From IMG/VR virus record IMGVR_UViG_3300048121_001079, positions 1 through 52,567 of that record: DNA of 52,567 bases. One strand, written 5' to 3'. Positions 21,618 to 43,662 of the stretch are shown in pieces (position 1 is the stretch's first letter; each line of letters begins with the position of its first letter). The DNA is from a virus. The position numbers and the translations under genes are program-made. The notes below the pieces were generated by a model. The model was given only the letters and a program-made list of their open reading frames with translations. It made no database searches and was not told the origin of the DNA.

Positions 21618-22877
21618 TTGGCAGAAAATAAAGAATTTAAATGTTCGTTTTGTGGTAAACCAAAGAACGAAATTAAAACATTAATTGCGGGACCTAATCA
21701 ATACATTTGTAATGAATGTATTGACTTGTGCCATGATATAATCCATGAAGTAAAATCTAAGAAACAAGAAAGCGATTATAAATCGACAACAGTTACTCCT
21801 GAAGAAATCAAAGAGTACTTAGATGAACATGTTATCGGTCAAGACGAAGCAAAAGAAGTTGTTTCAGTTGCAGTGTATAACCACTATAAACGTATCAATT
21901 CTACTGACACAGATATCGAATTAGATAAGTCTAACATTCTAGTCTTTGGTCCAAGTGGTACTGGTAAAACTTTGATAGGTAAAACTATTGCTAACTTCCT
22001 TGATGTGCCATTTGCTCAAATTGATGCTACCTCACTTACTGAAAGTGGTTACGTTGGTGAAGACGTAGAGAATGTAGTACAGCGTTTGTTAATCGCATCA
22101 GATTTTGATGTTGAAAAAGCCGAACGTGGTATTGTTTACATTGATGAAATTGATAAGAAAGCCAAGAAAGGTGAAAACTTATCAATCACAAAAGACGTTT
22201 CTGGTGAAGGTGTTCAACAAGCACTACTTAAAATCGTTGAAGGTACAATTGTTCGTGTTCCACCTGGCGGTGGTCGTAAACATCCAAACCAAGAAATGAT
22301 TGAAGTAGATACTAGAAAGATTCTATTCATCGTTGGTGGTGCATTTGTAGGCATTGATAAGATTGTAGAGAACAGAGTTAACACAAATCCTGGAATTGGT
22401 TTTGGTGCTACACACAAGATGGACACATGTAAGTGTGTGACTAGTAGAGAGATTAGAACACAAGACCTTTTGAAATTTGGATTAATTCCTGAATTTATGG
22501 GTAGATTTCCAATCATTGTAGGACTTGAAGAACTAACAGAAGCAGAACTAGTCAGAATTCTAGTTGAGCCAAAGAATAGTATAGTTGCACAGTTTAAGAA
22601 ACTATTCTCATTAGATAACGTAGAGTTAGAAATGGGTGATGATACATTATCAGCCATAGCCAAAATTGCACACGAAGACACTACAGGTGCGAGAGGACTA
22701 CGAAGTGTTATAGAGAAATCACTACTCAAATTGCAGTTTACTCTTCCAAAATTGGCAAAAGAAGGACTAGAGAAAGTTATTATTACTAAAGAATTTATTA
22801 ATGCAGATGTAGATACACCAATCTTAGTGTATGCAGAAGATGAGTCCAAGGAGACTGAACAAGGCATAGATGGGTAA
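21618..22877 (+). CDS. clpX: ClpX, AAA+ unfoldase of the ClpXP protease
   Basis: The 419-residue protein is full length (E. coli 424). It has the N-terminal zinc domain with Cys9, Cys12, Cys31 and Cys34, Walker A GPSGTGKT at 111-118, pore loop GYVGE at 144-148, Walker B IVYIDEID at 172-179, the RKHPNQEM pore segment, and the C-terminal sensor-2 region TGARGLRSV. The ClpP-docking loop IGF is retained at 260-262, so it should dock on the host ClpP. No clpP is seen in this window. The only possible start is TTG 21618, with AGGCGTAGG upstream. The gene overlaps infC by 8 bases. A phage ClpX that keeps its ClpP loop could redirect host proteolysis or remodel phage complexes. Confidence 0.96.
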
Positions 22878-23409
22878 TTATTATAAAAAGACTAGCAAAG
22901 TTAATATAATTTCTAATAATCAAATAACATTTGATAAATTAAGAGTAATAGATAAAGACAGAGAGCCATTAGGAATAATGGATAAGTCAGAAGCAATAGA
23001 ACTTGCTTTATCTCAAGGATTAGACTTAGTATTGATTGTAGAAAAAGCAGACCCTCCAGTTGCTAGAATAATCGAATTAAATAAGTATAAATACGAGATA
23101 CAAAAGAACGAGAAGCAAATGGCTAAAAAAGCCAGAGCCTCAAGGATAGATACTAAAGAAGTTAAGTTTAAGCCTAATATAGGCGAACATGATTTGCTTA
23201 TAAAACTAAATCATGCACAAGAGTTTTTAGATAATGGATGTAAAGTTAAGATTACAATTCAGATGCGAGGTAGAGAAAACTCAAATAGTTCTGAAGTATT
23301 TAAACATTTTAAAAATGCAATTGAAACACATCTAGTCAACTTTAGATGGGATTCAAACTTAGCATTAAACGGAAATAGGATAATAGGATTACTATACAAA
23401 GATGGCTAA
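22870..23409 (+). CDS. infC: Translation initiation factor IF-3
   Basis: Residues 15-85 match the IF-3 N-domain: [38 protein letters not shown] and [17 protein letters not shown]. Residues 85-179 follow the C-domain: [41 protein letters not shown]. Both domains and the Lys-rich linker are complete at 179 residues. IF-3 binds the 30S platform, checks start-codon pairing and prevents early 50S joining. The start overlaps clpX by 8 bases (ATG within the end of clpX) and the end overlaps rpsU by 8 bases. Encoding it with bS21 implies that the phage tunes initiation itself. Confidence 0.95.
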
Positions 23410-23665
23410 ATTTACACCAAGAAAGGTAAAAACAGGTAGAGAAAGACCAATAGGAACTCACGTAGAAGTACAACATGATAACTTTGAAAGAGCATTAAGA
23501 CTTTGGAAAAGAAAATGTTCAGATGCAGGCACAGTACAAGAAGTTAGAGAACGACAAGCATTCATTAAGCCTACTGAAAAGAAGAAGAAAATGAAAGCGG
23601 CAGCCAAGCAACGAACTAGACGTGAACAAGCAAAGAATAAATTACATAAGAAAAGATTGTATTAA
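23402..23665 (+). CDS. rpsU: Ribosomal protein bS21
   Basis: Residues 20-75 match bS21: VEVQHDNFERALRLWKRKCSDAGTVQEVRERQAFIKPTEKKKKMKAAAKQR. At 87 residues it is somewhat longer than many bacterial copies, with an N-terminal basic extension (TPRKVKTGRERPIGTH). bS21 sits by the anti-Shine-Dalgarno end of 16S RNA and is easily exchanged, so a phage copy could make phage-specific ribosomes. bS21 is known from other large and marine phages; coupling to IF-3 by an 8-base overlap is the notable point. The end overlaps the next gene by one base. Confidence 0.95.
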   Translation: MAKFTPRKVKTGRERPIGTHVEVQHDNFERALRLWKRKCSDAGTVQEVRERQAFIKPTEKKKKMKAAAKQRTRREQAKNKLHKKRLY

Positions 23666-23907
23666 TGTCAATTGAAATACTTGAAACACTAGATGTAAGA
23701 ACTCTACAGAAAGAGTCCGCTAGAGCATTATTAACCATGGACGGAACAAGTCATGGTATAGCACGTTTCAATAAACAAGCACAACATAACTCTCAGAACT
23801 GGTACAAAGCAGTGCTAAAAGAGTATATAGAAGAATATGGTGGCTTACCTTGTGATGTAGGTCCCGCAAAGGATTTAGTGTTATTTTCCGAGAAAATTGG
23901 TTTATAA
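23665..23907 (+). CDS. Hypothetical protein, 80 aa
   Basis: Starts in the TAATG overlap with rpsU, so it is co-translated with the IF-3 and bS21 genes. The sequence is mixed helical, with no recognised motif, signal or membrane segment. Its place at the end of the initiation-factor operon makes a ribosome-linked role possible, though nothing in the sequence shows it. Confidence 0.6.
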   Translation: MSIEILETLDVRTLQKESARALLTMDGTSHGIARFNKQAQHNSQNWYKAVLKEYIEEYGGLPCDVGPAKDLVLFSEKIGL

Positions 23908-23910
23908 AGA

Positions 23911-23919
23911 CTAAATAAG
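23911..23919 (+). promoter_or_regulatory. T4-type late promoter candidate for hsp20
   Basis: CTAAATAAG lies directly after the stop of the 80-aa gene. Transcription from it would begin at about 23925 and give an hsp20 leader of about 85 bases. Confidence 0.4.
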
Positions 23920-23920
23920 A

Positions 23921-24011
23921 GTGTACTGAGCAATAGTGTTTAGTATATTACCGAGATGCCGATAGGGTCTCAAACAATAATAACTTGCTTAATATAAGGA
24001 GAAAAATTATG
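23921..24011 (+). promoter_or_regulatory. ROSE-like RNA thermometer in the hsp20 leader
   Basis: The 3' hairpin pairs CTTGCTT (23984-23990) with AAGGAG (23996-24001) across the loop AATAT. This places the Shine-Dalgarno AGGA opposite TTGCT: T-A and C-G pairs flank a G opposite G, then T-A, which is the hallmark of ROSE elements. AAGGAG is 7 bases from the ATG at 24009, so melting of this weak hairpin would free the ribosome site. Two further hairpins lie upstream, 23921-23948 (10 pairs with several wobbles) and 23953-23971 (GAGA/TCTC and CC/GG with a GATA loop), as in multi-hairpin ROSE leaders. ROSE elements are known in front of small heat-shock genes of proteobacteria. Basis is sequence complementarity only. 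Confidence 0.65.
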
Positions 24012-24437
24012 ACAAGACATGTAACAACATTAACCCTGCCCGACTTCCACAGAACAATGCTAGGATTTGACCGATTGGTCGAAGACTTTCAAACGTTCAG
24101 TACTGGAACAAACAATGGGTATCCCCCTTTCAACGTAGAGACTACTGGTGATGACAAATATCAAATCACATTAGCACTTGCTGGTTTTGTACGAGATGAT
24201 TTAAAAATCGATGTACAAGAAGGTATTCTTACTATCACAGGTGAGAAAGTAGAAACAGAGTCAGAAGAAATTCAATATCTACATAAAGGTATCGCTAATA
24301 GAAGTTTCACAAGAACTTGGAAATTAGCAGAGTACGTTGAAGTAGTAGAAGCCAAGATGGAAAATGGTATGCTTTACATTTCTTTAGAACGCATTGTTCC
24401 AGAAGAAAAGAAACCAAAGTCTATCAAAATTAACTAA
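24009..24437 (+). CDS. Small heat-shock protein Hsp20 (IbpA-like)
   Basis: I use the ATG 24009, with AAGGAG 7 bases upstream, not the TTG 23985, which lies in the thermometer hairpin. The 142-residue protein has the alpha-crystallin domain at about 35-130: YPPFNVETTGDDKYQITLALAGF, DDLKIDVQEGILTITGEK and FTRTWKLAEYVEVVEAKMENGMLYISLER, then a basic IKIN tail close to the IxI-type anchor. The conserved GxLxI appears as NGMLYI. Hsp20 oligomers hold unfolding proteins for later refolding or degradation. It lies between the ClpX/IF-3 operon and clpS. Small heat-shock genes occur in marine T4-like phages; the leader is the unusual part. Confidence 0.93.
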   Translation: MTRHVTTLTLPDFHRTMLGFDRLVEDFQTFSTGTNNGYPPFNVETTGDDKYQITLALAGFVRDDLKIDVQEGILTITGEKVETESEEIQYLHKGIANRSFTRTWKLAEYVEVVEAKMENGMLYISLERIVPEEKKPKSIKIN

Positions 24438-24445
24438 AAAGTTAC

Positions 24446-24474
24446 TTGACTTTAACTACTAATTTAGTTATAAT
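24446..24474 (+). promoter_or_regulatory. Sigma70-like promoter followed at once by a terminator
   Basis: TTGACT at 24446-24451 and TATAAT at 24469-24474 have a 17-base spacer. The expected start of transcription is about 24481, where a terminator hairpin begins, so its transcript would be only about 30 bases unless the terminator is bypassed. Confidence 0.65.
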
Positions 24475-24479
24475 TAAGG

Positions 24480-24509
24480 GAGACAGACAGAAATGTTTGT
24501 CTCTTTTTT
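24480..24509 (+). terminator. Intrinsic terminator / possible attenuator
   Basis: GAGACA (24480-24485) pairs with TGTCTC (24498-24503), followed by TTTTTT at 24504-24509. It can end hsp20 transcripts and would also attenuate the promoter just upstream. Confidence 0.75.
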
Positions 24510-24531
24510 AATAGCCGACACGTGAAATTTG

Positions 24532-24540
24532 CATAAATAC
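24532..24540 (+). promoter_or_regulatory. T4-type late promoter for clpS
   Basis: CATAAATAC lies 24 bases before the clpS ATG and downstream of the terminator, so late transcription of clpS would escape attenuation. Confidence 0.55.
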
Positions 24541-24563
24541 ATAGTATATGAGGGAGAGTATAA

Positions 24564-24881
24564 ATGATTGAAAGTAACGAAAAAGAAAAAGTACAATCGT
24601 CAGATAATTCGTTATTAGCAATAGGCGAACCGAAGCAATATTATGTTGTAATGCACAATGATGATAAGACTCCGTTTGACTTTGTTATTGATATACTTAT
24701 GGCATTGTTCAACCATGATAAAGACACGTCGGCTGATTTAGCACATAAGATACATGTAGACGAAAAGGCAATTGTAGGAATGTACAACTTAGAAATCGCA
24801 GAACAAAAAGTTGAAGAAACTGTAAAGGCAAGCAGAGTTGCTAACTACCCTCTATCAGTATCTTTAGAACCAACGACTTAA
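24564..24881 (+). CDS. clpS: ClpS, N-degron adaptor
   Basis: Residues 28-105 follow ClpS: YYVVMHNDDKTPFDFVIDILMALFNHD, ADLAHKIHVDEKAIVGMYNLEIAEQKVEE and ARxxxYPLSVSLE. The NDDxTPFDFV segment and the following His (IHVDEKAIVG) form the pocket that binds destabilising N-terminal residues and the contact surface to ClpA. At 105 residues it is full length, with an N-terminal tail of about 25 residues that normally enters the ClpA pore. ClpS works with ClpA, not ClpX, so it should use the host ClpAP. A phage copy could raise or divert N-degron decay. GGGAGAG precedes the ATG. Confidence 0.93.
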   Translation: MIESNEKEKVQSSDNSLLAIGEPKQYYVVMHNDDKTPFDFVIDILMALFNHDKDTSADLAHKIHVDEKAIVGMYNLEIAEQKVEETVKASRVANYPLSVSLEPTT

Positions 24882-27042: not shown

Positions 27043-28098
27043 ATGTTTAAAAAACTATTAATCTCAGCAGTCCTATCAGTAGGTATTGCAACATCGGCCA
27101 TGGCCGATTACACCCTAATCGTACCACAAGCACCTGGTAAAGGTACTTCAGTATGGGGTGAAATTATTGCTAAGAACTTAGAAAAATTTCTAGGTGAACC
27201 AGTAGTAGTTCGTCATATTCCAGGCGCACGTGATATTCCTGGATTTAACAAGTTCCACGACAGCCTACGTTTTGATGATAAAACAATCATGGTTGCACAC
27301 GGTGGTAACGGCGTATCATACTTACTAGATAAAGTTAGATATGATTATTACGATTATGAATTAATCGGTTCAATGAATAATGATATCGTTCTTGGTAAGC
27401 AAGAAGGCAAAGACGAAAAATCAGGCACTTGGACAATTGCAGGTGGTTCAGGTTTTGAACCAGATGCGGCCGCGGCGGCAATGTTAATTTGCGGTCCACA
27501 AGAAAACGGTTCAATCGATGCCTACTTGGCATGTTGGAGAGAGCGTGTTGTATGGGTGAACGGTGTATCAGGCGGTGAAAAGCGTCTAGGTTTCCAAAAC
27601 GGTGAATTTGATATTGCACGTGAATCACCAGCGGCATGGAAACGTTTCTATACAGGTATCGAAGGTAACGAACTATGGTTCACACATGGTATCTTAGACT
27701 TAGAAAACAATGTACAAATGGATGACCCTAACTTCCCTAACACACAATTTGAAGACGTGTATGAAAGATTATGGGGCGAAGCACCAGCAGGAGATTTATA
27801 TAACGCATATAAACTTACTCGTAACTGGCGTGATGCAATCCAGAAGTCACTTTGGATGAACAAAGGTAACCCGAATGCGGCAAAAGTAAAAGCGGCTGTA
27901 ACTGAAATGATTAACGACCCAGTTGCAAGTGCAGAAATTTATGCTAAGACAGGTGTTTATCCTTGGATCCAAGACGGTGATAGTCTATTAGCGGCTCTTA
28001 AATCTTTGATTACAGAGAAAGCACTAAGAGATGCGGTGAAGTGGAACCAAGAAGCATATGGCTTCCCATCAATCTACAAACCTGAACTTTTAGACTAA
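27043..28098 (+). CDS. tctC: TctC/Bug family periplasmic solute-binding protein
   Basis: Residues 1-21 are a signal peptide ending in ATSAMA, so the product is exported. The mature start YTLIVPQAPGKGTSVWGEIIAKNLEKFLGEPVVVRHIPGARDIPG matches the family opening (PxxPGGxxDxxAR...GxxVVVENxPGAGG). Further on, TWTIAGGSGFEPDAAAAAML and the C-terminal VYPWIQDG are in keeping. The length of 351 is slightly above usual (about 320). Such proteins bind citrate or other carboxylates in the periplasm and feed TctAB. GC-ending codons (gcggcc, ggcggt) look more frequent than in neighbours. tctA follows after 9 bases. Confidence 0.85.
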   Translation: MFKKLLISAVLSVGIATSAMADYTLIVPQAPGKGTSVWGEIIAKNLEKFLGEPVVVRHIPGARDIPGFNKFHDSLRFDDKTIMVAHGGNGVSYLLDKVRYDYYDYELIGSMNNDIVLGKQEGKDEKSGTWTIAGGSGFEPDAAAAAMLICGPQENGSIDAYLACWRERVVWVNGVSGGEKRLGFQNGEFDIARESPAAWKRFYTGIEGNELWFTHGILDLENNVQMDDPNFPNTQFEDVYERLWGEAPAGDLYNAYKLTRNWRDAIQKSLWMNKGNPNAAKVKAAVTEMINDPVASAEIYAKTGVYPWIQDGDSLLAALKSLITEKALRDAVKWNQEAYGFPSIYKPELLD

Positions 28099-41694: not shown

Positions 41695-41770
41695 GCCGAT
41701 GTAGCACAGTTGGTAGTGCAACTGATTTGTAATCAGTAGGTCGGGAGTTCGAGTCTCTCCATCGGCACCA
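41695..41770 (+). tRNA. tRNA-Thr (UGU)
   Basis: Acceptor GCCGATG pairs with CATCGGC, discriminator A, encoded CCA. The anticodon stem ACTGA/TCAGT holds loop TTTGTAA, anticodon TGT. Confidence 0.95.
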
Positions 41771-41779
41771 TTTTAATAA

Positions 41780-41854
41780 GCGGGTGTGGCTCAGTGGTAG
41801 AGCATCTCGTTGCCAACGAGAGGGTCACGGGTTCGAATCCCGTCACCCGCTCCA
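41780..41854 (+). tRNA. tRNA-Gly (GCC)
   Basis: Acceptor GCGGGTG pairs with CACCCGC, discriminator T, encoded CCA. Stem TCTCG/CGAGA holds loop TTGCCAA, anticodon GCC; the T-loop is TTCGAAT. Confidence 0.95.
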
Positions 41855-41860
41855 GTTCAT

Positions 41861-41936
41861 TCCTCAGTAGTTCAGTTGGTAGAACACCGGACTGTTAATC
41901 CGTATGTCGCTAGTTCGAGCCTAGCCTGGGGAGCCA
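41861..41936 (+). tRNA. tRNA-Asn (GUU)
   Basis: Acceptor TCCTCAG pairs with CTGGGGA with one wobble, discriminator G, encoded CCA. The anticodon loop is CTGTTAA, anticodon GTT; the first pair of the anticodon stem is mismatched. Confidence 0.93.
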
Positions 41937-41942
41937 AAATTC

Positions 41943-42032
41943 GGAGAAGTGGGAGAGTGGTTTAATCCACCGGTCTTGAAAACCGGCGTACCTTTATCGG
42001 TACCGTGAGTTCGAATCTCACCTTCTCCGCCA
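41943..42032 (+). tRNA. tRNA-Ser (UGA)
   Basis: Acceptor GGAGAAG pairs with CTTCTCC, discriminator G, encoded CCA. Anticodon loop CTTGAAA, anticodon TGA, and a long variable arm (CGTACC...GGTACCG) typical of tRNA-Ser. Confidence 0.95.
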
Positions 42033-43512: not shown

Positions 43513-43586
43513 GTTGGCGTGGCAGAATGATTATGCGACGGATTGCAAATCCGTTTATATAGGTTTGATTCCTATCGCCAACTCCA
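43513..43586 (+). tRNA. tRNA-Cys (GCA)
   Basis: Acceptor GTTGGCG pairs with CGCCAAC, discriminator T as required for tRNA-Cys, encoded CCA. Stem ACGGA/TCCGT holds loop TTGCAAA, anticodon GCA. Confidence 0.95.
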
Positions 43587-43588
43587 AT

Positions 43589-43662
43589 ATCGGTGAAGTG
43601 TTTCGGTAGCACGACAGTCTCCAAAACTGTAAGGCGGGGTTCGACTCCCTGCACCGATGCCA
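43589..43662 (+). tRNA. tRNA-Trp (CCA)
   Basis: Acceptor ATCGGTG pairs with CACCGAT, discriminator G, encoded CCA. Stem ACAGT/ACTGT holds loop CTCCAAA, anticodon CCA; T-arm CGGGG/CCCTG-like. Confidence 0.93.

Follow-up and report, generated by a model that had tools for sequence, protein, structure and literature searches.

The hsp20 gene of a marine virus raises the question of whether a phage can place its own chaperone under the control of an RNA thermometer. The gene lies at 24009–24437 on the plus strand of IMG/VR record IMGVR_UViG_3300048121_001079, whose 52,567 nucleotides we refer to as the window. This 52.6-kb record looks like a piece of a larger marine phage, and relatives of its Hsp20, either close or 67% identical, were found on contigs of up to 115 kb and 342 kb. 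From its ATG (24009–24011) the gene encodes a small heat-shock protein of 142 amino acids, an assignment made in an initial annotation of the sequence and confirmed by matches to PF00011 (71.4 bits) and to the PHROGs family phrog_432 (E = 9.5e-40). On the same strand, it is preceded by genes for ClpX, translation initiation factor IF3, ribosomal protein bS21 and a small ORF, and is followed by ClpS; the stretch from 21618 to 24881 reads as a phage proteostasis and translation island. The initial annotation proposed that the hsp20 leader is a ROSE-like thermometer in which CTTGCTT (23984–23990) pairs with the ribosome site AAGGAG (23996–24001), and both motifs were found exactly at these positions.

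Folding of 23921–24011 yielded two upstream hairpins followed by a ribosome-site hairpin, with a minimum free energy of −20 kcal/mol (z = −2.5 against dinucleotide shuffles); the two upstream hairpins had also been anticipated in the annotation. The outermost hairpin (23921–23948, plus strand, as is the whole leader) has 12 base pairs and is specific to the window's clade: close relatives such as L003 and L012 retain it with altered arms, and most other phages lack it. The next hairpin (23953–23971) folds as GAGAU-[G]-CC-GAUA-GG-GUCUC around a bulged G at 23958, an invariant feature on which the annotation was silent. In the third hairpin, the anti-ribosome-site strand CUU-G-CUU (23984–23990), which contains a U(U/C)GCU motif with G23987 bulged, is joined by the terminal loop AAUAU (23991–23995; such loops are mostly 3–6 nt among leaders) to the sequestered Shine-Dalgarno strand AAGGAG (23996–24001). 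In the window's clade, the CUUG within 23984–23990 can alternatively pair with CAAG in codons 2–4 (24009–24030), and it is possible that this modelled pairing forms a competing 'open' fold.

We found that the Rfam model ROSE_3 (RF02523) matched 23950–24014 over its full length (1–69 of 69) with 31.6 bits, and with E-values of 4.6e-5 when all families were searched against 231 nt and 2.5e-6 when ROSE_3 alone was searched over the whole record. The covariance search suggested in the annotation therefore recovered the ROSE family, at a score below the curated gathering score of 43 bits. No phage leader reached that score; the best had 36.2 bits, the close relatives of the window 30–36 bits, and Melnitz-3, Atu_ph07, S-SKS1 and C48C1 27–34 bits. 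At gathering scores, the window returned tRNAs only, the ROSE match surfacing with E-value thresholds. The leader shares further features with the class: a U(U/C)GCU motif whose pairing to the ribosome site, in the hairpin nearest the 3' end, is imperfect (23985–23989 with 23996–24001), a conserved bulged G23987 within a GCU that is invariant in 43/43 diverse leaders, stable hairpins (23953–23971 and 23921–23948) 5' of the putative thermosensing hairpin, and a location in the 5' UTR of a small heat-shock gene. Two other thermometer types were rejected. No UUUU faces the ribosome site and no Rfam fourU match was present, and the lambda cIII thermoregulator model (RF01804) had no match in the window.

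The annotation had named the pairing in related leaders as a check, and we collected hsp20 loci from IMG/VR, named phages and bacteria, giving 227 leaders, nine from bacteria, for which a start could be assigned. A T[TC]GCT motif lay no more than 18 nt 5' to the ribosome site in 223 of the 227, compared with 0/143 other ribosome-site-led ORFs on the same contigs. The four exceptions were a leader with the motif and GGAG (L057), a rewired version (L054), a truncated leader (L159) and that of Vibrio phage PWH3a (L060), which truly lacks the element. Among 24 named phage records, 21 carried it, with cyanophages, pelagiphages, and Methylophilales and rhizobial phages among the carriers; the hsp20 genes of PWH3a and of a second Vibrio phage, IBT_VpB-34 (L256), had no leader element, and Synechococcus phage DSL-LC02 had a different hairpin in its hsp20 leader. 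Pairing was kept, with compensatory changes, in phages whose Hsp20 proteins share merely 30–70% identity, and the distribution of the motif is far wider than the annotation claimed. The S-PM2 Hsp20, used as a query, returned two loci only. In Prochlorococcus phage P-HM2 (L260, GU075905), a ROSE-like element (110–163) lies inside the annotated hsp20 coding sequence (region 89–163); the annotated start is probably too far upstream, the likelier one being the ATG at 161 (MEIQRYTAADL).

Covariation was examined for both helices. In an alignment of 43 dissimilar leaders made from sequence alone, all 7 pairs of the upstream hairpin showed compensatory, two-sided changes, 92.4% of cells were paired, and the covariation score was 0.720; shuffles scored 0.268 ± 0.025 and slid structures no more than 0.196. 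Almost no variation was seen at the bulged G or the C that follows it in this alignment, and a bulged-G hairpin scoring at least 9 was found in 60% of 134 unique phage leaders versus 1.2% of shuffles. The core of the ribosome-site helix varies little because it must match 16S rRNA. With the register fixed by position alone, covariation was nevertheless present at pairs −2, −3 and −4 relative to the bulged G (P = 0.003, <0.0005 and <0.0005, respectively). Rewired helices were found in AG-345-D19 (GAC[G]CUU/GAGGUC), S-TIM5 (CCAC[G]CUU/AAGGUGG), S-RSM4 and Rhodobacteraceae (GUC[G]CUU/AAGGAC) and HTVC103P (AUC[G]CUU/AAGGAU). UUU faces GGAGG almost without exception (26 leaders), and the base 5' of the bulged G is invariably U or C, facing G. 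In the window, the favoured register is C23984–G24001, U23985–A24000, U23986•G23999, bulged G23987, C23988–G23998, U23989–A23997 and U23990–A23996. The TTGCT/AGGA pairing of the initial annotation stands, and the covariation favours a bulged G23987 over its G facing a G, which is an alternative register of the same motif. A model-fitted alignment of 44 sequences had 98.5% and 93.2% pairing in the two helices, an alignment that is itself biased towards structure. Comparison among sequences establishes both predicted helices, their bulged Gs, the placement over the ribosome site and the kinship with bacterial ROSE-type heat-shock leaders.

To follow this kinship we used R2, a covariance model built solely from virus leaders, because RF02523 matched merely 2/240 alphaproteobacterial genomes. 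R2 matched the window at 23951–24011 with 56.7 bits and found matches in 24 of the same 240 genomes. Loci taken from 12 genomes placed the match directly before hsp20 (nine) or rpoH (three). Several of the matched genomes are small and A+T-rich (1.2–1.6 Mb), from which we infer that they are SAR11-like. The three rpoH loci (L246, L247 and L249) come from small alphaproteobacterial genomes and carry the same element before the gene for the heat-shock sigma factor, which suggests that in those bacteria the sigma factor is itself under ROSE-like control. In the E. coli ibpAB region, R2 had a sole match, the ibpB leader (E = 9.7e-5). Since the phage-derived model finds hsp20, rpoH and ibpB leaders, the same fold marks bacterial heat-shock leaders. 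Another R2 match (G021) adjoins hsp20 but precedes a CBS-domain gene, and in one alphaproteobacterial genome (L236/L240) two ROSE-like leaders face each other, preceding hsp20 and a CBS-domain protein gene, respectively. Additional weak matches of a model R1 (L037:3630, L016:1254 and L013:2226) were dismissed for want of the U(U/C)GCU motif.

We consider it likely that the leader is a ROSE-like cis-acting RNA thermometer of the phage hsp20 gene. In the cool state, 23953–23971 would form a stable bulged-G hairpin and the weak second hairpin would lay CUU-G-CUU over the ribosome site, so that little Hsp20 is made; on warming, the second hairpin would melt and free AAGGAG, and ribosomes would start at 24009. 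Melting as the switch and temperature as the signal are presumed here by analogy with the known ROSE class. In Pseudomonas ibpA, hairpin II melts and hairpin I remains closed (PMC3669281), and in the oppF thermometer deletion of the bulged G lowers induction (PMC11342760). ViennaRNA calculations between 5 and 45 °C on the window and 118 leaders versus 183 controls gave no temperature switch and no useful discrimination between hsp20 and control leaders; when 15 coding nucleotides were added, the ribosome site of the window was predicted to be mostly open at every temperature. The same calculations gave no switch for the proven E. coli ibpA thermometer either, and we therefore regard them as weak counter-evidence and do not take the energies as proof. 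Nearest-neighbour midpoints of the bare helix were about 27 °C for the window, about 40–59 °C for most other phages and about 49 °C for E. coli ibpB, on a crude scale that ignores non-canonical pairs and is to be read as an order only. The low midpoint of the window would fit a cool-water thermometer. Because open-ocean temperature shifts slowly, it is not evident what would be gained from a thermometer.

Several other explanations of the leader were weighed. Chance pairing near a ribosome site might be suspected from a hairpin that is short and, taken alone (23980–24005), weak at −0.9 kcal/mol; its near-universal occurrence in hsp20 leaders and absence from control ORFs, together with the covariation, refute this, and we give it practically no weight. 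An element acting in DNA or transcription, such as a promoter or terminator that mimics ROSE, is only marginally less improbable. Its best argument is that TAAATA-type, late-promoter-like strings stand just 5' of many leaders: (A)TAAATA-like stretches precede many related leaders in the alignment, and ACTAAATA (23910–23917, plus strand) might conceivably be a T4-late-type promoter element in the window. Such motifs were not enriched in the window, which led us to reject a T4-like late promoter, and a terminator was rejected as the hairpin has no following U run. The motif also keeps a fixed place relative to the ribosome site and start codon, and the compensatory changes in both helices effectively refute a DNA-level role. 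A structured leader of fixed strength, which would keep Hsp20 low or protect mRNA 5' ends with no useful temperature response, is harder to dismiss but still unlikely. Conservation tells us that the structure is important but not whether it responds to temperature; marine hosts meet little rapid heating; and the energy model had no special temperature response. What argues against it is that, instead of a perfect helix, the leaders strictly keep a bulged G and U(U/C)GCU, a ROSE signature linked to thermosensing (PMC11342760, PMC3669281), and that the phage model run blind on bacteria lands at the heat-shock genes hsp20 and rpoH.

The closest competitor, which we hold tentatively and at well under even odds, is autoregulation, in which the phage Hsp20 would bind its own folded leader and repress translation as E. 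coli IbpA does. Unfolded proteins, whether produced by heat or by the massive output of phage proteins, would titrate Hsp20 and raise translation, with temperature as one input. E. coli IbpA represses itself by binding its 5' UTR, which needs R93 and Y34 or another aromatic residue at that position (PMC10474464). These align with R98 and Y38 of the window Hsp20, and among 164 distinct proteins the R93 equivalent is Arg in 161 and the Y34 equivalent Tyr or Phe in all 164; the position of IbpA R97 is Arg or Lys in 161/164. PWH3a and IBT_VpB-34, which lack the RNA element, also lack the R93-equivalent Arg. On the other hand, the loop containing R93 is conserved in general, the RNA element is retained by L055 and L014 despite a Lys at this position, and IbpA K98, which E. 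coli also requires, is not conserved, the phage proteins mostly having Gly, Ser, Ala or Thr there. Temperature and chaperone titration can coexist, and our confidences in the thermometer and in autoregulation therefore overlap.

Returning to the thermometer reading, its nearest described counterpart is Pseudomonas ibpA (PMC3669281), which likewise has about 60 nt, a stable hairpin I and a weak hairpin II, a U(U/C)GCU facing the ribosome site, an unpaired AUG and a small heat-shock gene under its control. It differs in being host-encoded, in its GC-rich hairpin I and in its proven temperature response, which for the phage leader would follow by analogy. The phage leaders share with RF02523 ROSE_3 the order of elements, among them the anti-ribosome-site strand and an upstream hairpin with a bulged G, but have shorter loops, are A+U-rich and have some sequence pairs replaced. 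The E. coli ibpB leader, matched by R2 with CUCGCUU/AAGGAG, has a longer insert between the hairpins and lies in an operon with ibpA, whose own leader is of the ROSE_2 type (RF01832, 100 bits). The element before cyanobacterial hsp17 also precedes a small heat-shock gene, but is a single hairpin and not ROSE (PMC4477652); cyanophages would therefore carry a proteobacterial-type thermometer instead.

Thermometers in phages have precedents. That of lambda cIII was reportedly described by Altuvia in 1989. The initial annotation knew of none in a phage genome, a statement contradicted by lambda cIII and the SPbeta blyA fourU (PMC10586365), both of which are cited in a count of two phage RNA thermometers and one sigma70 candidate (PMC11182007). 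These too are phage-encoded RNA structures, with the temperature-dependent translation that we presume for hsp20; they are built as alternative structures or a fourU, in single phages and not at heat-shock genes. The hsp20 leader, unlike either, is of the ROSE type and occurs in many phage groups. Our literature search, which left most subscription journals outside, found nothing linking ROSE with cyanophages or thermometers with phage hsp20, and a ROSE-type thermometer spread over many phages appears to be undescribed. The element is missed at Rfam thresholds, for example in S-CREM1, where the three cis-regulatory RNAs reported by an Rfam survey of non-coding RNAs do not include the hsp20-leader element (PMC9964418); R2 scored this leader at 35.8 bits. 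If the reading is true, a thermometer is present in many of the ocean's most abundant phages (cyanophages, pelagiphages and Methylophilales phages), and these viruses may tune a protein-protecting gene of their own to temperature or protein damage. Cultured phage–host pairs would allow a test of whether water temperature sets the amount of a marine-phage chaperone and, through it, burst or host survival.

A tree of 53 Hsp20 proteins requires, on its well-supported branches, four or more switches between bacterial and phage carriers, and gene and element have therefore probably been exchanged repeatedly between bacteria and phages. Regulatory RNA and gene would move together between bacteria and viruses, cyanophages included. 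A broader proposal, that the ROSE leader and hsp20 form a mobile module exchanged several times among marine bacteria and phages and gating the chaperone on both temperature and, via Hsp20 binding, unfolded-protein load, seems to us rather doubtful. Elsewhere in the window, the ORF at 27043–28098 has a signal-peptide-like start and by reading alone resembles a periplasmic tricarboxylate-binding (TctC-like) protein, which would be unusual in a phage; it had no match in PHROGs. The window also contains two tRNA clusters, with four tRNAs at 41695–42029 and two at 43513–43659.
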